A stretch of 64,000 bases of DNA from Diabrotica undecimpunctata (Eukaryota; Arthropoda; Insecta; Coleoptera; Chrysomelidae), in assembly GCF_040954645.1 (NCBI RefSeq), contig NC_092803.1, forward strand, positions 14,819,230-14,883,229. Reading direction: 5' to 3'. The notes below the pieces were generated by a model, which did not search any database, had not been told where the DNA came from, and worked only from the letters and a program-made list of their open reading frames with translations. The position numbers were made by a program, and so were the translations under genes. This document shows, piece by piece, positions 4,307 through 63,456 of the stretch (position 1 is its first letter; each line of letters begins with the position of its first letter).

Positions 4307-4571
4307 ACAAGTAGAACTAAAGTAAATTAAAATCGTAGACTAATTTTCGAAACCAAATTCAGAATTTCGCTTTAATCTGTGCCTTCTAAGAATTGCAAGG
4401 CAAAACAGACGTTGATAAAGGTGTTATGAAAGACATGGGGAATCTAAAAATTGCATTCCACAACATATCTCCTCAACTAAGCAAAGTTCTTAGCGAATTG
4501 GTTTCTAGTACCCGTACAGAGTATATCGAAATAAAAAGGAAAAAACAGTTAAGATTTGATTTCACGTACAG

Positions 4572-4639
4572 GGCGCATGCGCATCCGCTTATACGTATTT
4601 CGGCCTAATAGGCCTCATCAGAACGGCTTTCGCAATCGC
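4572..4639 (-). ncRNA. Type I hammerhead ribozyme, left arm
   Basis: Read on the minus strand, the conserved core CUGAUGA is followed by stem II (GGCC / UAUUA loop / GGCC), then GAA, then a minimal stem III (AU-ACGU-AU). The cleavage triplet is AUA, with cleavage predicted between 4590 and 4589. Stem I pairs CCGUU with AGCGG, then after an internal loop UUGCG with CGCAU (one mismatch), then GCG with CGC. All invariant core positions are present. It differs from the right-arm copy by about one base in the paired region. Confidence 0.85.
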
Positions 4640-4670
4640 TCTAATTCATCTATATTCTTCGCCTCATCAG

Positions 4671-4739
4671 GGCGATTGCGAAAGCCGTTCTGATGAGGCC
4701 TATTAGGCCGAAATACGTATAAGCGGATGCGCAAGCGCC
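4671..4739 (+). ncRNA. Type I hammerhead ribozyme, right arm
   Basis: The core CTGATGA is at 4690-4696. Stem II is GGCC (4697-4700) with GGCC (4706-4709) closed by a TATTA loop. GAA is at 4710-4712, and a very short stem III is formed by the palindrome ATACGTAT (4713-4720). H17 is A4721, so cleavage is predicted after 4721 (triplet AUA). Stem I pairs CCGUU (4685-4689) with AGCGG (4722-4726), then UUGCG with CGCAA (5 bp), then GGCG with CGCC (4736-4739), with internal loops between. A tiny stem III and an internal loop in stem I are typical of the hammerheads known from Penelope-like elements and retrozymes. Activity is inferred, not shown. Confidence 0.88.
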
Positions 4740-4780
4740 CTGTACGTGAAATCAAATCTTAATTGTCTTTTCCTTTTTAA

Positions 4781-5211: not shown

Positions 5212-5369
5212 GACACATATCAATAACTCAGTGGTGCGTTGCACTGGAAGAAATTACTGGACTTCAGTTACCCTGGAGGATGCTCAAAGACAAACTAGTT
5301 ACAGTAGATGCTGACACAAATAAAGTGAAATATCAGACGACATTCGACGTCAAGAATGAAAAACTTAAC
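5212..5369 (+). CDS. rdgC: rdgC/PPEF serine/threonine phosphatase, internal exon (C-terminal region)
   Basis: The exon of 158 bp is bounded by a TTTCAG acceptor and a GTGAGT donor. It opens in phase (two bases complete a split Gly/other codon) and ends on a codon boundary. It encodes HISITQWCVALEEITGL, then QLPWRMLKDKLV, then a linker ending KNEKLN. The TQWC...LPWRMLKDKL block is characteristic of the region between the phosphatase core and the EF-hands in the PPEF/rdgC family of calcium-regulated, light-pathway protein phosphatases. The catalytic domain is not in the window and must lie upstream to the left. The exon phases join perfectly to the next three exons (13709, 14735, 21296). Confidence 0.88.
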
Positions 5370-5810
5370 GTGAGTTTAAAAATCATTTATATAAGTTTAT
5401 TATGTTTCTGTAGATTATAGGTAGGTACATTAAAGATAATATTTATTGATGGTTTTTTTTAAGCGAAGTTTATATACTGGTATTTGTGGTATTACTTTTT
5501 TCTCTATAGTAAAATGATAAGCAGGTTTAATAAAAACTACATAAAAAATAACTAACAGAATACAGACATTAAATCAGAAGTGAAAATTAAAAGAATATCT
5601 TTCAATAAAAGATTCAATTTATAATGATTGTCAAAGTTCATATGAATACAATTTACACAATTCACATAAAATGTGGAAATCATAGTATAAAGCCTCGCGC
5701 TAGTCTACAATACCGCCTACTGTACCATTTTTTACTATTTTTGAATAAATAGGTTTTTCACCGATCGTAAAAACCTATGATTTTTGATGATGTGACTATA
5801 ATATACTCTT
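5370..5810. other. rdgC intron, plain sequence
   Basis: AT-rich intronic sequence between the exon donor and the TSD of the RTE copy. No feature was recognised. Confidence 0.6.
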
Positions 5811-5822
5811 ATCGTCTAGAGC

Positions 5823-7108
5823 CATCCTTATGGTATGTGCCACCCTTTAAAGATTCTCTTGAAAATTTGTTCAAAACCGAATTTATAAGAAATGTGAGGA
5901 GCAGATAGATGAAACTCAGTTTGGCTTCAGAGGAGGCATGGGTACAAGAGAAGCATTATTTGCGTTGACGGTACTCTTGCAGAAATGTCGGGAATATAAC
6001 AAGAGTGCATATGTATGCTTCATAGACTTTAGGAAGGCCTTTGACCGAGTGCAGCATATGAAGTTAATAGATGAATTAAAAAACATCAATTTAGACAAAA
6101 AAGACATTGAGTTTATTAAGGCTATATACTGGAACCAGAAAGCAGTAGTAAAGGTGAACGATATAGAAACAAATAACATACCGATTGCGAGAGGGGTTAG
6201 GCAAGGTTGCGTCTTGTCTCCGACGCTTTTCAACGTGTACTCACAGGTCATATTCAGAAAAGCCTTATGGGAAAGAAAAGAGGGAATAAGAATTGGTGGA
6301 GAAATCATAAACACCATGAGATTTGCAGATGACACGGTAATTATGGCTGAGAGTATAGAAGAACTACAGACTTTACTAGATGCAATAAATAGTGAATGCA
6401 TTCAAATGGGACTTGACATCAACACAGATAAGACCAAATTTATGATAGTATCAAGGAGTCCAATAAATAATGAACAACTAACTCTTGGTGGACAGCAAAT
6501 AGAGAGAGTGACAAAATATAAATATCTGGGAGCTTACATCAACACAGAATTAGATCCAGACCAAGAGATCCGGGTACGAATAGAAATGGCAAGGGCAGCC
6601 TTCTTAAAATTCAAACAATTGTTCTGTGACAAAAATCTGAATACTGCGCTGAGACTGAGGTTTGTTGAATGTTACGTCTTTTCGCAACTATTGTACGGGG
6701 TAGAAACATGGACACTAAAAGCGCAAATAGTTAAAAAGATTGAAGCCTTTGAACTTTGGATATACCGGAGAATGTTAAGAATTCCATGGACTGCCAGGGT
6801 CACCAATGAGGAAGTGCTGAGAAGGATGGGTCGAGAAAAAAAATTGTTGAGAACGATAAAAGTACGCAAGACTGCATACCTTGGACACATACTAAGAAAT
6901 AATAAATATAGTCTTCTGCAGGTCATCATGCAGGGTAGAGTCGATGGCAAAAAGGGAATAGGTAGAAAGGGGAAGTCATGGCTGCGAAATATTCGAGACT
7001 GGACAAACATGACTGTAGACGAATTATTCCACGTTGCAAAAGACAGAGAAGCTTTTAAAAATGTGGTCGCCAACCTCCGTTAATGGGGACGGCATAGGAA
7101 AAAGAAGA
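5823..7108 (+). mobile_element. RTE-type LINE, 5'-truncated, with 12-bp TSD
   Basis: The insertion is flanked by a perfect 12-bp duplication atcgtctagagc (5811-5822 and 7109-7120). It ends in a short AAGAAGAA tail rather than poly(A), the ending shared by at least seven other copies in this window. The 5' end is truncated inside the reverse transcriptase (RT). It lies in the 8.3-kb rdgC intron, in the gene's own orientation. Assignment to the RTE clade rests on RT and C-terminal motifs and the simple-repeat tail; the exact clade is tentative. Confidence 0.88.
5872..7083 (+). CDS. LINE reverse transcriptase, C-terminal part (open)
   Basis: This partial open frame runs without a stop from before the first Met (5938), because the frame is already open through QIDETQFGFRGG upstream. 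RT motifs in order: GTREAL; CFIDFRKAFDRV (first catalytic Asp); GVRQGCVLSPTLFNVY; MRFADDTVIMAE (the YADD-equivalent box); then the thumb/C-terminal block with LLYGVETWTL, ELWIYRRMLRIPW, TNEEVLRRMGRE, YLGHIL and a C-terminus ending VVANLR. It is about 400 codons long and undamaged, so this is the best RT reading frame in the window. The endonuclease and N-terminal RT parts are missing through 5' truncation, so it cannot move autonomously. Confidence 0.9.
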   Translation, partial: QNRIYKKCEEQIDETQFGFRGGMGTREALFALTVLLQKCREYNKSAYVCFIDFRKAFDRVQHMKLIDELKNINLDKKDIEFIKAIYWNQKAVVKVNDIETNNIPIARGVRQGCVLSPTLFNVYSQVIFRKALWERKEGIRIGGEIINTMRFADDTVIMAESIEELQTLLDAINSECIQMGLDINTDKTKFMIVSRSPINNEQLTLGGQQIERVTKYKYLGAYINTELDPDQEIRVRIEMARAAFLKFKQLFCDKNLNTALRLRFVECYVFSQLLYGVETWTLKAQIVKKIEAFELWIYRRMLRIPWTARVTNEEVLRRMGREKKLLRTIKVRKTAYLGHILRNNKYSLLQVIMQGRVDGKKGIGRKGKSWLRNIRDWTNMTVDELFHVAKDREAFKNVVANLR

Positions 7109-7119
7109 ATCGTCTAGAG

Positions 7120-8862
7120 CAGTACTTCTCAACCTGGGGGGCATGAGAAAATTTAAGGGGAGGCGTGAGGGTACAAAGAAAAAAAAAATTAAAATTAAAA
7201 AATATATGTATTTTGTATTTTTATTTTGTTTAGAAATATATCTTTATTTAAACGTAATTAAAATCGTTTTACTCAAACACTCAACCTGAGTTAAGCACTC
7301 CTGGCTCCAGTTTAGGGACTCCGTCTCACGCGTCAATCTTAGTCGACAGCGTCTGTGTGCTGTTGGTAGAAATCAGTGTAATCCTTATTTAATAACAGAA
7401 TGATTGTTTGTGAATTATTTAATAGTGTTGTGTAACAGCTTTGAAAATGCCTAAGTCACTTCCAAAGAACAGATTGTATTCAGACGATTATATCAAGTAT
7501 GGTTTTACCTTTATGGAGAAAAACGGCAGTCATTTACCTCAGTGTGTCAACTGCTATGCTGTTCTTAGTAATGATGCAATGCGCCCCAGACGTTTGGAAC
7601 GGCATCTAATTACAAACCATTCTTCTTTGAAAGACAAAGGTCCAGAATTTTTTATTGCCAAAAAAAGCAGCCTAAAACATATGATACTTGACTCTACTGC
7701 AAATTTTCGTGTTGAAAATGAGAAAACTGTGGAAGCATCATACAAAATAGCACTTTTGATAGTTAAAGACAAGAAACCACATACTATTGATGAGTCACTA
7801 ATTAAACCTTGTTTACATACTGCTTGTAGTACCGTACTTGTACGTGAAGACAGTTGTAAGAAAGTAGAAAAAATTTCTGTCTCAAACGACACAGTAAAAC
7901 GTAGAATTGATGACATGGCTCTGGATTTGAAAAATCAACTATTGCAAAAATTAAAAGATTCACTGTTTTTTTCTTTGCAGTGTGACGAAACAACTGATAT
8001 TTCAAAGCATGCACAGTTATTGTTTTACTGTCGATTTATTGACAGAAAACGGTTCCTGGAGGAAATATTGTTTTCAACATCTCTTGAAACAACAACTAAA
8101 GCCATTGACATATTTTCTGCTCTTGAAGTTTTTGTCGTAATCAATGAACTTCCATGGGAGAAAATAATTGGCATATGTACTGATGGGACCCAAGCCATGA
8201 CAGGATGTCGATCTGGATTTATGGAATTGGCAAAAAAGAAGAACCCTAGGATAATTGGTCCTCACTGCATTATTCACAGACAAGCTTTATCTAGTCAGAC
8301 TTTACCTGAACCTCTCAACGTCACTTTAAACTTAGCAATTAAAATAGTTAACCACATCAAATTCAGCGCATAAACACTAGGCTCTTTCAGGCACTATGTC
8401 AAGAACTGAATAGTGATCAGGAAACCCTCCTGTTTCACACAGAAGTCCGGTGGTTATCCAAAGGAAATGCTTGCAAAATTATTTAATTTAAAGTCAGAAG
8501 TTGAAATTTTGTTAATGACTTCAAAACAAGAAGATCTTCACAGAAGATTTACAGATGATAAAAATATCTTTTACTTGGCTTATTTGTCTGACTTTTTTGA
8601 GACACTTAATGTCCTGAATATGAAGCTTCAAGGCCGTACAAACCTCTTAAACACTTATGATGCAATTAAGCGGTTTATAGAAAAAATATTGCTTTGACAA
8701 CGCCGCCTTCTCAGTTCCAAGCCAAACTTTTCCTCTTTTCCTAAACTGAACGACCTCCTCGATGATATTAAAACCCTTCCACTACATCTGAAAAATCAAA
8801 TTCGAAAGTACTTTCCAGATGTTAGCTCGGAAAACTGGGAATTTAAGTTGACAAGAGATCTT
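7120..8862 (+). pseudogene. hAT transposase, ZBED5 / SCAND3 type, broken
   Basis: The element begins with a Charlie-like terminus CAGTACTTCTCAACCTGGGG (7120) directly against the TSD of the RTE copy. The coding frame starts at ATG 7447. A BED zinc finger occupies about residues 30-60 (CVNCYAVL ... RHLITNH). The catalytic-core blocks are SLQCDETTDIS and ICTDGTQAMTG, followed by PHCIIHRQAL. The frame stops at 8373, continues in other frames (VRWLSKGNA; then 8470-8697 with YLSDFFETLNVLN), and reaches FPDVSSENWEFKLTRDLFN near 8862. The C-terminal dimerisation domain and the 3' terminus are missing; the sequence passes directly into piggyBac coding sequence. At least two frame breaks make it dead. 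Confidence 0.82.
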
Positions 8863-9770
8863 TTTAACAAGAGAGGATGTGTTTGTATTGATAAAATGTT
8901 GGTCGGCTTTAGGGGAAGGTGTAGGTTCAAAATGTATATGCCTAATAAGCCTGTGGAATATGGCATTAAAATAATGTGCCTGACTGATGCACGAACGAGT
9001 TACTTATACAATGCCTGTATATATGGAGGCAAGGACATTGATGGAACAGGGTTATCTGAGGAAGAAAAGAAGATGAATAAACTAACTCAATCTGTTCTTC
9101 GGCTTGCTAAACATATTTATGGAACCAACTGTAATATTACAGCCGATAATTGGCTTAGTTCTATAGAATTAGTACAGCAGTTAGAAGTAAAGAAGTTAAC
9201 CTATGTGGGAACCCTTAAGAAAAATAAACGGGAAATCCCTCTGGAATTCCAGTTACACCGATGCAGGGAAGTAAATTCGACTTTTTTACGGATTTACGAA
9301 AAGTTTAACCCTAATTTCACATGTGCCGAAAAAATCGAAGGTTGTTTTACTTATTTCTTCGATGCACGAAAACCAGAGATTATAGCTCATTAAATTCTTA
9401 CGAAAGGAGGTGTCGCTACGTTAGATGCCAAGTATGCCAAATATGCTGGTAAACGTTGTTCTCGCCGATGGCCACTTACTGTTTTTTACCGCATCATTGG
9501 TATAGCTGCTGTTAATTCGCATGTTGTGTACCAATCACTACAGGAAAAAAATACAGAGAAGTTAAAATACACAAAGGAGTTGGCGAAGAAATTAGTTTTA
9601 CCACATCTTCAGAGAAGACTGGAAAATCCCAGAATCTCGAAAAAATTGGTATGTTGTATTGAACGAATACTAGGAAAAAAACGCCAAAAAGAAGCAGATT
9701 TTGAAGTAAGGCTTGAGCTTGACCTTTTATGCGTGCTTTTCTTGTGGAAAACCAGTGTGCTTACAGTGTA

Positions 9771-28669: not shown

Positions 28670-29684
28670 TCAAAAGGAATGGATGACAAACGAAATTTTG
28701 CATCTCATGGAGAAAAGGCGAAGAAATAAAACCAACAAGACAAAATACAAAGAAGTGAACCGTGAAATTAAGAGAAGCCAAAGAGAACTGGGTTCTGGAC
28801 AACTGCAAGGAAATAGAAGAATATGATAGAAAGTACGATAGCTTTAACATGCATAAAAAGATCAAGGAAATAACAGGTAAAAAAGTGAAACAAGCATCCA
28901 TAGTAAAGGACAAAAAAGGTAAAATAATTACAGATTTAAATGAAAAACTGGCAAGATGGATCGAATACATTGAAGAACTTTTTGCAGACGAAAGACCAGA
29001 AATAGCAGTGGCAGAACCTACAGACGACACAACAGGGCCTGAAATCCTAAAAAGCGAGATAGAATATGCTATAAGGAACACAAAAGGGGGTAAAGCTGCA
29101 GGACCAGATGAAATTCCTGTAGAATTGTTGAAACTAATAGACGACGATGCACTTGAAATAATGGTGAACTTCTTTAACACAATTTATAGAACAGGCACCA
29201 TACCAAAGAAATGGCTCTCATCTGCTTTTGTCACAATCCCGAAGACGAATAACGCCAGAGAGTGTTCAGACCACAGAACTATAGCATTGATGAGCCACAC
29301 ACTAAAAGTATTTTTAAAAATAATTCACAAAAGAATATTTAATAAATTAGAAGAGGACATAAGCGCCATACAGTTTGGATTCAGAGGTGGACTGGGAACA
29401 CGGGAAGCTTTGCTTGGTCTGAGTGTGTTAATGCAAAGATGTTTGGATGTAAACCAAGACCTCTACGTAGGTTTCATAGATTTTGAGAAGGCCTTCGATA
29501 AAGTCAGACACCAAAAACTGTATGAAATCCTAAGAAGCAAAAACATCGACAGTCGCGACATTAACATCATATCCAGGTTGTACTGGGGACAAACAGCAAA
29601 AATCAAAGTTGATAATAAGTTAACCGAAGATATTGAGATTCGTCGAGGTGTGCGTCGGGGTTGTGTGCTTTCTCCACTAATATT

Positions 29685-29782
<98 letters not shown>

Positions 29783-30572
29783 CGAAACAATATGTCAGGA
29801 AGCGCTCCTAGAGCAAAACATTGGTATGAACATGAACGGAGAGTTACAGTTACAGTTTTTGATGGAAGACATAAACACCCACACCAATAAGTATGGTCTA
29901 AAACTGAACATCAAAAAGACTAAATTCATGATTGTTATAAAGAAGCTATACACCAATGTGAATTTAACCATAAATAATCAGCCAGTTGAAAGAGTTACGT
30001 CCTACAAATATTTAGGGGTTTGCTTCACTGATACTAATGACCAGACAAGAGAAATCAAGAGGCGAATAGAGATAGCGAGACAATCGTTTGTCAAAATGAA
30101 AAAGTTCCTATGCAGCCGGGACATAAATATAAACTTAAGAACGAGAATGTTAAGGTGCTATGTTTTCTCCATTCTGCTGTACGGCATGGAAGCCTGGACA
30201 CTTAAAAAGATAAACATCAAAAACATTGAGGCATTCGAGATGTGGTATTACAGGAGAATGTGGAAAATACCATGGACAGAAAGAGTAACAAATCAAGATG
30301 TTCTGCTGAAGATGGAGAAGGAATGCGAAGTCATAAAAACCATACAAACGAAAAAACTGGAATATCTGGGCCACATAATGAGAAAAGTACTCTCTGCTTA
30401 GACTCATAATCCAAGGAAAAATCTCGGGAAAGAGAAATGTGGGACGTAGGAGGATTTTCTGGTTTCAAAATTTAAGGGAGTGGTATGGGTGCAGATACAG
30501 TTCAGCCACCAAAGTAAAGATTGCTGTGATGGTAGCCAACCTCCGATAGGAGACGGTACTGCAAGAAGAAGA
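28670..30572 (+). mobile_element. RTE-type LINE, nearly full RT, split by a TA expansion and lacking the FADD box
   Basis: The N-terminal linker (KEWMTNEILHLMEKRRR) leads to a 310-codon frame from 28762: GGKAAGPDEIPVELLK, WLSSAFVTIPK, AIQFGFRGGLGTREALLG, GFIDFEKAFDKVRHQKL and RRGCVLSPLIFNIY. There a 95-bp TA tract interrupts the reading. After it, in another frame, SETICQEALLE follows, then MNGELQLQFLMEDINTHTNK, where the FADD motif and its flanks are deleted. The C-terminal thumb region is intact to about 30401 (LLYGMEAWTLKK, EMWYYRRMWKIPWTE). The end is GCAAGAAGAAGA near 30572. Confidence 0.88.
29687..29781. repeat. (AT)n microsatellite inside a LINE coding region
   Basis: About 47 AT units occupy the place where family members encode FN-(I/L)-Y-S-E. 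Expansion from an original ATATAT pair of Ile-Tyr codons is the simplest reading. Confidence 0.95.
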
Positions 30573-31301: not shown

Positions 31302-32132
31302 ATGTCAACCCATTTTATTCTTGAAATGCTGGTATGTAACGCTTTTCTTATTAATATTTTATGGTTTCAATTAGTCAGAACTCAACCACGAATTGTTGGG
31401 GGTGAAGAATGTAGCGAAAACTACCCTTTCATGGTATCTATACGGGTAAATAACAGGCACTACTGCGGAGGAACTCTGGTAACCCGTTGGTGGGTTCTAA
31501 CAGCAGCCCATTGTAATGACGATCCTAAGAATAAAGATTACGTTGCTCAGTTTGGAACTAAATACATGGAACCACCAGCTGGTACAAACTACACAAGAAT
31601 AAAAATCACGAAGATAAGAAATCATCCATATTATAGCTTTGTGAGGTTGGTCAACGATATAGCTATGGCAAAGTTGGAACGACCGGTATATAACTACGAA
31701 TTTGTAAAGCTGCCAAAGTCATTTACGAGAAAACAGATGCCTTCGTTTTGCAAGGAAGCACTAGTAATGGGTTGGGGAGATAAGGTGGAGGGAACTCGAG
31801 TAGGCAGCCAGGAACTGATGTGTGTTTATATTGAGACCATTGATCTCTATAAGTGTGATCGAGATCATTATGAGCAATACTTTCACAGCAGAATCTGTAC
31901 ATATACACCAGGTAAAGATGCCTGCCATGGTGATTCCGGTGGTCCTTTAATATGCGATGATATTCAATATGGTATAGTTTCATTTGGGAGAGGTTGTGGG
32001 TCTCATCCCGGAGTATATACTCGAGTTGATAACTACTTGTATTTTATAAATAGGGTATTAAGCGGCGGGAGCAGAAGTGACGGAGCTCTAGAAGTAATAA
32101 TTTTTTGCATATTGTTGTTGGTTCATCAATAA
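31302..32132 (+). CDS. Trypsin-like serine protease, single exon, intact
   Basis: A secreted S1-family endopeptidase. The frame is 276 codons from ATG 31302, or 268 from ATG 31326. A hydrophobic signal segment (LVCNAFLINILWFQL) precedes a very short propeptide ending QPR, with activation at R|IVGGEEC. Catalytic residues: His in TAAHC, Asp in NDIAMAKL, Ser in GDSGGP. Asp at the S1 base (KDACHGDSGGP) plus Gly in SFGRGC and HPGVYT predict trypsin specificity, for Arg/Lys. Ten cysteines fit five disulphides, including a 22-157 type pair. After the protease domain a short hydrophobic tail (LEVIIFCILLLVHQ) could be a GPI-anchor signal or a membrane anchor. No introns and no damage are seen. A digestive, developmental or immune role cannot be told from sequence. 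Confidence 0.93.
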   Translation: MSTHFILEMLVCNAFLINILWFQLVRTQPRIVGGEECSENYPFMVSIRVNNRHYCGGTLVTRWWVLTAAHCNDDPKNKDYVAQFGTKYMEPPAGTNYTRIKITKIRNHPYYSFVRLVNDIAMAKLERPVYNYEFVKLPKSFTRKQMPSFCKEALVMGWGDKVEGTRVGSQELMCVYIETIDLYKCDRDHYEQYFHSRICTYTPGKDACHGDSGGPLICDDIQYGIVSFGRGCGSHPGVYTRVDNYLYFINRVLSGGSRSDGALEVIIFCILLLVHQ

Positions 32133-40026: not shown

Positions 40027-41967
40027 GGTTTTTTATAACGTCTTACGACGTTGTCCGACTCCCAAACGCCACTGTATTCTGTCTTGAGTTAGGTCTTCGT
40101 CCAGATTTCGAGCGCTAATCGCTTTCCTAACTCCCAGGTTCCAGCTCTGTGGTGGTCTTCCTCGTTTCCTCTTCTTTGGGGGTTGCCACATCATCGTTTT
40201 TTTTAGGCAATCTTTCGTCCCCCATTCGGCTCACATGCCCATACCATATGAGCTGTTTTCTCTCAATATCCTCAACTAGCCCTCTATACCCATTTGTTGT
40301 TTTATCACTTCATTCCGTATTCTGTCGGCTCTTGATATTCTCATCGATCTTCTGATGGCATCCATTTCCGTGGCTTCGACCTTTTTCTTATATTTTTCGG
40401 TTATTCTCCATGTCTCAGCTCCATAAAGTAGGCTAGTTTTAACCATTGTCTCATAGATGTTCCATTTTCTTTTCTTTGATATTTCTTTACTCCATAGAAT
40501 TCCGTTCAAACATGCTATAGCTCTTCGTGCTTGTATAATTCGATGTTCTATTTCTCGTTCGTCTTTTCCACTACGGTCGAAGATGACGCCCAGGTATTTA
40601 TATTCGTTGCATGGATTTATTTTTTGATTGTCATCGATATCGAGTTGTTCTGCTTCAGCTCCAATTGAGAGGTATTTTGTCTTTTCTAAATTGATATTTA
40701 ATCCCCATTTCTGGTATTCTTCAATTAGTTTTCTAAGAATGTATTCCATGTCATCTTTGTCATTTGAGATTACCACCTGATCATCTGCAAACTGTAAAGT
40801 ATATATGTAATCCTGATCGTTCAATTGTATACTCATTCCTTTGACTTTCCTTTTCCATAGCTGCAGAGATATAAATCTTAAATAGAGTCGGAGAGATACA
40901 ACATCCTTGTCTGAGACCCTTAGTAATTGCAAATTTTTCAGCTAAGAGGTCTCTATTTGTCACAATTTTCTTTTCTATAATTTGTTTAAGACAGAAGATG
41001 TTATCTGTACATGAACGACCTGCTCTAAATCCTCCTTGTTCTTCGTCTTCAGACGATTGATAATCTTCCTCTATCAGGTCCCGTAGTATTCGACCGTATA
41101 GTCGACTCATTGAACTTGTGACCGATATCCCTCTATAGTTTTTATAATTTCTCCTGTCATCTTTTTTATATATTGGGGTCATATATGCTGTTTTCCATTC
41201 ATCTGGTGTTGGATGTCCATTAATATATTCGTTAAATATCACCGTGATCATTCTGTGTAATTTCTCTGAGCCATTCTTTATTAATTCCGTAGTTACTCCC
41301 TCTGGTCCACTTGCTTTCCCATTCTTCATCCCTGCTATAGCTTTTTGAACTATGTTGATATCTATGGTAATATGCTCTCCCAGAATTTCGATTCTTGATA
41401 AATTCATATCTTCTTTAAATTCGTCTCTGTTCTCATTTAATAGATGTTTGTAATAATGTGTCCAATCCTCGGGATTTATGGGATTTAGAATCACTTTCTC
41501 GTTAGTCGGCTTCTTAACAGAGTTTATAAACTTCCACGCCTCAGTGCATTGTCGTCCTCCAATATAAGATTCTATCTCTCTGCACCTTCTATCCCATATC
41601 TCATTTTTGGAGGTCATAATTATCTTTCTAGTTTTCTTCTTCATTTCATTGCATCGGTCTTTGTCTGCGTCATCTTTTGTATTTAACCACTTATGGTATA
41701 ATCTTTTCTTTTCTGTTACCGCATTTTCGACGTCTTCATTCCACCAAAGCTTGTTACTAATTTTATTTTGTTTGATTCCTAAGACCTCCTGTGCTGTTTG
41801 ATGAATACTTGATATTATGTTCTCATATATGCATTTGGTATTTGTTAGTGTTTCGTCAAGTTTGGAGTCCATTCGAGTCTTATATAGTGTGCGGGTGCTC
41901 TCATGAATTAAACTGGACAGATTGTATTGAGGAAGATCAATTCTTTCTAAAAGTATTATAAGGTGCT
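39975..41967 (-). mobile_element. RTE-type LINE, fifth lineage, TA tail, perfect 14-bp TSD
   Basis: A perfect 14-bp duplication aaaggtattataat lies at 39961-39974 and 41968-41981. The minus-strand frame 41872-40781 covers WWNEDVENAVTEKKRLYHKW, NGKASGPEGVTTELIKNG, PDEWKTAYMTPIYKKD, YRGISVTSSMSRLYGRIL, EQGGFRAGRSCTDNIFCLKQ and KGLRQGCCISPTLFKIY. The FDxxKAFD motif is missing: TNRDLL passes directly to AEKFAITKG. In the second frame (40932-40276) come YTLQFADDQVVISNDKDD, KYLGVIFDRSGKDEREIEHR and LLYGAETWRITEKYKKKVEA. The 3' end joins the TA tract. Truncated at the 5' end. Confidence 0.9.
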
Positions 41968-62499: not shown

Positions 62500-63456
62500 G
62501 ATTTTGGGTGAACCGTCACAATGGAAAACCTTCGTTGGAAATAGGGTGTCGGAAATACAAAGGCTTTCTAATGGATATAGCTAGCATCATGTTGACTCGC
62601 ATGATAACCCAGCCGACATAATTACGCGCGGATATGAACCAAAGTTATTAAACACTTCAAAATTGTGGTGGAATGGGCCACCATGGTTAGCTTCTCATTT
62701 AAATTCATTTAAATGTTTCATTGCTAGAAGAGGTCTATGTAAAAATATGTATTCTGATAATGGAACTTCGTTGGGGCAAATAATCATTTGCAGGAGTTAT
62801 ATTCATTTATGAATGATGCAACGGTAAAATCAAATTTTTTAGATTATTTTTCGGAACATAAGATTCATTGGCATTTTATTCCAGCTCACTCACCACATTT
62901 TGGTGGCATCTGGGAATCAACTGTAAAATCGGTAAAGTTTCATATACGAAGGGTAATGTGTAATAATAAATTTACATATGACGAAATGTATACTTTGTTG
63001 ACGCAAATTGAGTCTCTCCTAAATTCCCGTCCTTTATTACCTCTGTCGGAAAGTCCAGAAGACCTTGGTGTACTCACCCCTGGACATTTTCTAATTGGAG
63101 CACCACTTGTAGCACTGCCACAAGAAGAGCTAACTAAAATAATTCCGAATAAGTTGAAACGGTATCATCACCTGACTCAGATAATTCAGAGTTTTTGGGT
63201 ACGCTGGTCACGTGAGTACCTCTCTTCACTTCAGCAGCGAACCAAATGGAGAACAGCAGCTGACAACGTGAAAATTGGATCATTGGTTATTATTCAAGAG
63301 GATGGTCTTCCTCCTACTAAATGGGAATTGGGTAGAATATTGCAACTACATGCTGGGACAGATAATGTTGTGCGGGTTGTGACTGTGCGCACTTCTAAAG
63401 GTGAATTCAAAAGGCCTTGTGTAAAGTTAGCCGTCCTGCCAATGGATGAACAATAA
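62500..63456 (+). pseudogene. BEL/Pao integrase with C-terminal DUF5641 domain, truncated
   Basis: The N-terminal remnant [32 protein letters not shown] and LWWNGPPWLASHLNSF comes from the RNase H/integrase junction of BEL pol. It jumps to the integrase core: MYSDNGTSFVGANNHLQEL (second catalytic Asp), IHWHFIPAHSPHFGGIWEST (catalytic Glu), then LLTQIESLLNSRPLLPLSES, and the DUF5641 end FWVRWSREYLSSLQQRTKW, ELGRILQLHAGTDNVVRVVT and a stop after PMDEQ. The zinc finger and first catalytic Asp are lost in the internal deletion. There are one stop (about 62583) and one frameshift (about 62772). The 222-codon stretch from 62788 is intact. Confidence 0.9.

Follow-up and report, generated by a model that had tools for sequence, protein, structure and literature searches.

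In LINE-1 twin priming, two primers on one RNA produce an insert with an inverted 5′ part. Inverted ends are likewise known for Penelope elements (PMC3846280): in Adineta, as far as the available text of that paper goes, the copies have an inverted pLTR, target duplications of 8–10 bp and palindromes where the inverted parts meet, and one of the inverted ends bears a 31-bp tail; the authors inferred self-priming. According to the available text of PMC11167929, the Anolis Penelope protein cleaves AT-rich DNA on both strands in vitro and extends each of them, starting from two sites within the RNA, and hammerhead mutants of the element still insert in vitro.

Here, we analyzed a 64,000-nt stretch of the genome of the beetle Diabrotica undecimpunctata, referred to as the window, in which two hammerhead ribozyme cores lie in a palindrome. 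We consider it quite likely that this palindrome arose when a 397-nt non-coding retroelement with a hammerhead, of the retrozyme type, inserted in a single event via two-sided target-primed reverse transcription. Compared with LINE-1 twin priming, the second start in the beetle is fixed (termed B below, the other being A) and the ends have no poly(A) tail. The beetle element and the inverted-pLTR Penelope described in the available part of PMC3846280 share head-to-head terminal parts, short duplications, junction palindromes and asymmetric ends, whereas neither an RT nor an endonuclease ORF is present in the beetle unit, in which the two ends are 192 nt apart. The two Anolis start sites are adjacent and show no strand difference in the available text of PMC11167929, whereas A and B are paired across the DNA ends in the beetle. 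Finally, the beetle element differs from the animal non-LTR retrozymes with type I hammerheads in PMC7229834, as far as the available text goes, in forming inverted inserts whose two 3′ ends are fixed; the main text of that paper contains none of the words inverted, inverse or opposite.

The hammerhead palindrome and its insert

The first-pass annotation, made from the letters of the window, had described two hammerheads back to back in a palindrome at 4535..4780, and this was borne out by a structural descriptor and by alignment of the arms, with the cores intact in both. The palindrome occupies 4532–4779, and its 114-nt arms (4532–4645 and 4666–4779) are 96% complementary, are separated by a 20-nt spacer and differ at 5 positions, 0 of which are inside the ribozyme core; the insert, on the other hand, extends farther left than the annotated interval, to 4328. 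In both arms, the type I hammerhead core is intact and has stems I–III in type I order, namely CTGATGA, stem II (GGCC-TATTA-GGCC), GAA, ATACGTAT, A17 and a proximal stem I of 5 bp. When the hammerhead descriptor was run over the whole window, it matched only at the two arms (with three listings per arm, one for each stem II option), and 60 simulated windows with matched dinucleotide make-up gave 0 matches. The predicted cuts (Table 1), obtained by base counting on the sequence, fall at the positions claimed earlier. As for the segmented stem I claimed alongside them, the pairing of the proximal 5 bp holds, whereas the distal GGCG/CGCC pairing is found in the right arm only; the left arm has GAGCG plus an A-to-T change there instead. 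The palindrome loop contains a second anti-core stretch, GCCTCATCAG at 4660–4669, upstream of the right ribozyme.

The first-pass annotation had also named, beforehand, a missing covariance-model match as grounds against the hammerheads, and the Rfam scan of the window returned no family at the gathering cut-off. Under lax settings, the best hammerhead match in the window was to a type III family, with 16.2 bits against a cut-off of 48.5, and six other loci, four of them with copies of the element, gave no hammerhead match at E ≤ 10. Rfam matches to bantam and other microRNAs were below cut-off and were rejected as reflecting hairpins or low complexity.

As shown in Table 1, the insert lies between identical 13-mers, indicating one integration event. 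The insert flanks have 19–21% GC, as against 33% for the window. An exon-like stretch with splice signals was found at 5214–5372; its 53 residues had no match in Pfam, and we presume from its translation a resemblance to retinal degeneration C/PPEF phosphatase. If this stretch is an exon, the insert would be in an intron. The window further contains a trypsin ORF (31302–32132), identical to one known from D. undecimpunctata, as well as remains of hAT-type, RT-bearing, piggyBac-type (DDE_Tnp_1_7) and DUF5641 elements, as detected with Pfam (147–2200, 5938–7083, 8848–9393, 28762–29811, 40781–41872 and 62788–63456).

Table 1. Parts of the insert and its borders, in window positions.
Feature	Positions	Strand	Remarks
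Target-site duplication, left copy TAAAGTAAATTAA	4318..4330	+	overlaps element end by 3 nt
Element unit 205 to 1 (sense on minus)	4328..4531	-	outer end = start site B
Element unit 397 to 287, left hammerhead	4532..4642	-	core from 4621 downwards; cleavage predicted after 4590
Filler, 24 bp, at inverted junction	4643..4666		unlike centres of 14 other inverted loci compared
Element unit 285 to 397, right hammerhead	4667..4779	+	core from 4690 upwards; cleavage predicted after 4721; start site A at the outer end
Target-site duplication, right copy TAAAGTAAATTAA	4778..4790	+	overlaps element end by 2 nt

The 397-bp unit and its copies

Each palindrome arm corresponds to the end of a 397-bp tandem-repeat unit, five of which are present, for example, in locus L009. 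The unit has 38% GC and no long ORF, the longest open stretch being 93 codons across the unit border, and it folds with the hammerhead within a long segmented stem I (z −4.0). The antisense strand of the unit (L009 2230–2626) has a 73-codon open stretch that is partly kept in the window. Copying from a dimer circle was tried as an explanation for the L009 array and rejected, since the unit identities (93.5–96.7%) do not single out alternate units.

A 33-nt core pattern had 459 exact matches in the genome compared with 0 for a reversed control, and a genome similarity search gave at least 154 matches, with 40 of 1623 candidates scored. Pattern scans of viral contigs and prokaryote genome contigs gave no matches. 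The copies studied below come from 54 loci, i.e., the window, 20 loci from the similarity list (L009–L028), which are biased in favour of palindromes, and the 33 loci L029–L061, which come from the pattern list ordered by position. Note that 100 listed places of the 459, corresponding to 81 loci, make up the latter list; 33 of these loci were fetched, and eight outside the 33 are the window and seven of the 20 similarity loci, some of them inverted. The other genomic copies, which the first-pass annotation had proposed to count, comprise direct as well as inverted repeats.

We next compared the stems across 44 copies (37 distinct), with 8 incomplete ones of 52 omitted. Stem cells were paired in 96.2% of cases; two-sided changes were found in 10 cells against 1.5 expected, and the covariation score was higher than in 500/500 shuffles. 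Pairs with double changes numbered three, which 55/500 shuffles reached, and the number of pair types was not raised. These double changes belong to the L016 and L019 subfamilies and may represent few events. Despite the missing Rfam match, the RNA fold is favoured at the level of sequence by the compensation seen between copies in stems I and II.

The element is best filed with animal retrozymes. It has the small tandem repeats, type I hammerheads and low GC of animal non-LTR retrozymes, and like them it has no long ORF and makes target duplications of more than 4 bp (at least 8 nt in 26/51 loci). Regarding the features of Penelope-like elements, the 397-bp unit contains no RT plus GIY-YIG ORF, and inverted terminal parts with short target duplications are present, so that by insert structure the element works like a Penelope-like element. 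The earlier assignment to type I hammerheads of the retrozyme or Penelope sort is supported.

Orientation and outer ends of inverted copies

Inverted copies were found at 10 of the 33 loci from the position-ordered list, a fraction that is, if anything, low because the eight overlapping loci of that list include inverted ones. All 10 had the sense 3′ ends outward, with one end at A (unit 391–397) and the other at B (191–208), and the remaining 23 loci ended at A (18 loci), at B (4 loci) or at 103 (L060). The probability of A/B ends in 10/10 loci is 5e-6 if ends are independent at single-ended frequencies, and 0.001 at 50:50. When all 54 loci were considered, 25 were inverted, with the sense 3′ ends outward in 25/25 and A/B ends in 23/25; the latter include L011 and L013, in which A is shifted to 389 and 380, respectively, and the exceptions are L015 (333/190) and L022 (397/289). 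Neighbouring cores among the 100 listed places were in -/+ order seven times and in +/- order 0 times. Duplications of at least 8 nt were present in 18/25 inverted loci as compared with 2.3% of re-paired flanks, the other 7/25 having no 8-nt duplication, and in 8/26 single-ended loci as compared with 3.9% of re-paired ones (L041, L043 and L058 omitted). Together with the target-site duplication and the 397-bp unit, the A/B end rule indicates that the inversion is a product of integration; the first-pass annotation had picked up none of the three.

Junction centres differed among the 15 inverted loci compared, indicating separate events. A palindromic form with a flanking duplication could also belong to a DNA transposon of the snap-back kind (a MITE) that has long inverted ends and has captured a hammerhead; we rejected this explanation as extremely improbable, given that centres are not shared, that the two outer ends differ, and that the same sequence is found in direct tandem arrays and in single-ended inserts with variable 5′ ends.

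A further explanation is that one cDNA, or an antisense-RNA copy, folds back with the help of the self-complementary stem I and serves as its own template, a route put forward for Adineta Penelope by the authors of PMC3846280, who, in the available text, inferred it from the palindromes at inverted junctions. Such self-priming would be in line with the 38-nt junction overlap of L026, which lies inside the stem I inverted repeat, and with a stem I fold-back piece in L011. In addition, arms within a locus are slightly more alike than those between loci: mean identity was 94.0% between loci and 96.6% in 12 within-locus opposite-strand pairs, with 98.5% (66 columns) for the window arms. Given these values, family resemblance suffices for the window arms, and the recent formation or gene conversion suggested in the first-pass annotation finds no support. 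Self-priming, however, leaves unexplained both the fixed second outer end B in 23/25 inverted loci and the target duplication at both outer ends, and arms within a locus often differ by hundreds of nt in length. We regard it as unlikely; two-sided priming fits the beetle data better because the second end is fixed and paired with the first.

Whether both primers used one RNA was judged from where the cDNAs stop. Of 23 A parts, 5 (those of L024, L035, L037, L038 and L039) end at 200–206, which is the start of B, and in L037 the parts are 174–205 and 206–396. These stops near the B start (p = 4e-4, for a 198–208 interval picked after viewing the data) suggest one RNA shared by both primers, although many A parts extend past B, which counts against it. 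Starts at 198–208 were not enriched across all 90 blocks (p = 0.105), a set including some split or older pieces (L043, L058), and the contrast of A-part stops with single-ended loci (0/18) gave p = 0.056. B stubs of 31–33 nt recur in L024, L037, L040 and L051. Of the 90 blocks, 0 have a start or an end 3 nt or less from the predicted ribozyme cut and 78 cross it, indicating that the templates were uncut or religated. The 5′ ends of inserts cluster at unit 277–306, just upstream of the ribozyme, in 27/90 blocks.

Predicted folding, proposed insertion route and Penelope elements

The predicted fold of the right arm alone (−31.3 kcal/mol, z −3.4) contains stems I and II of the hammerhead, and the left arm alone is predicted to prefer another fold; the hammerhead state, in a model without tertiary contacts, makes up 3.5% and 0.2% of the predicted ensemble of the right and left arms, respectively. 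In a read-through transcript of either strand, the antisense arm is made first and the core is predicted to pair with it on appearing, the whole hairpins having predicted energies of −199.9 and −201.5 kcal/mol. Loop-started transcripts are likewise predicted to prefer non-hammerhead folds. In the inverted copy, the hairpin would mask both ribozymes, and little cleavage would be expected from this copy, because the antisense arm comes first and captures the core. The strand-specific regulation raised in the first-pass annotation is not supported by these predicted folds, in which each core would pair with the antisense arm at once. Could the palindrome nevertheless be a functional unit, i.e., a two-strand ribozyme pair or a source of hairpin RNA for regulation or small RNAs? 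The two intact cores, the long hairpin that a transcript would form and the extra anti-core stretch in the loop are what such a unit might have, but inverted loci are common and have different centres, arm divergence is at the family level, and both cores are hidden by the predicted folding, making this explanation very improbable. In the light of the predicted folds, we take the back-to-back arrangement of the ribozymes to be a by-product of insertion; judging by analogy with retrozymes, the ribozymes presumably process the RNA of intact tandem copies.

Insertion by two-sided target-primed reverse transcription would proceed as follows. A multi-unit sense RNA would be made first; the left part of the insert in the window crosses the unit border, so that the template either spanned several units or was a circle. 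An endonuclease, most likely of the Penelope GIY-YIG type, would then cut both strands of AT-rich DNA approximately 8–13 bp apart, a step whose trace is the duplications observed. One DNA 3′ end would prime at unit ~397 (A) and the other at ~205 (B), probably on the same RNA molecule; the pairing of the two ends is observed. The two cDNAs, each shortened at its 5′ end, would finally be joined by short overlaps or filler, yielding back-to-back hammerheads with the sense 3′ ends outward.

The genome has RT plus GIY-YIG ORFs in L062 and L063, the RT match of L062 being just under cut-off. The L062 Penelope (RT, GIY-YIG) has an inverted 0.5-kb end (1017–1536/3497–4009, 96%) that is absent in L063. 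We examined the L062/L063 Penelope family as a partner of the element and rejected it, since its end sequences had only chance-level matches to the 397-bp unit. Several other features of these loci were observed. Penelope pieces of L014 (2297–2965/3764–4386) are inverted with 87% identity, and the outer ends of the L062 and L014 elements run into TA repeats. A 32-nt stretch (L063 3172–3203/L014 2872–2841) that adjoins the end of the Penelope ORF matches the B-end region (unit 186–214) at 78%, possibly by chance at E 0.75. CTGAAGA followed by a hairpin and GAAA is found in the Penelope 3′ region at L062 1295 (-), L062 3738 (+) and L063 3577 (+); these motifs are hammerhead-like, without a clear stem I.

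In the part of the literature that our search covered, we met no report of inverted ends in retrozymes, nor any of A/B pairing. For Penelope inverted repeats with a one-sided tail, the origin has so far been inferred, not shown, as far as the available text of PMC3846280 goes. We tentatively propose, as a possibility with slightly less than an even chance, that a single RNA has two built-in RT start sites, one per strand of a staggered break, and that a dimeric Penelope-type enzyme would load one DNA end with A and its partner with B, giving inverted A/B inserts; in Penelope elements at large, the inverted ends together with the one-sided tail could have arisen in this way. The insert structure, beyond co-occurrence, ties retrozymes to Penelope-style insertion, and the 397-nt non-coding family, with its 459 core matches, two fixed starts and clear duplications, represents a small testable system in which a single enzyme acts on an RNA and a target that are both short.
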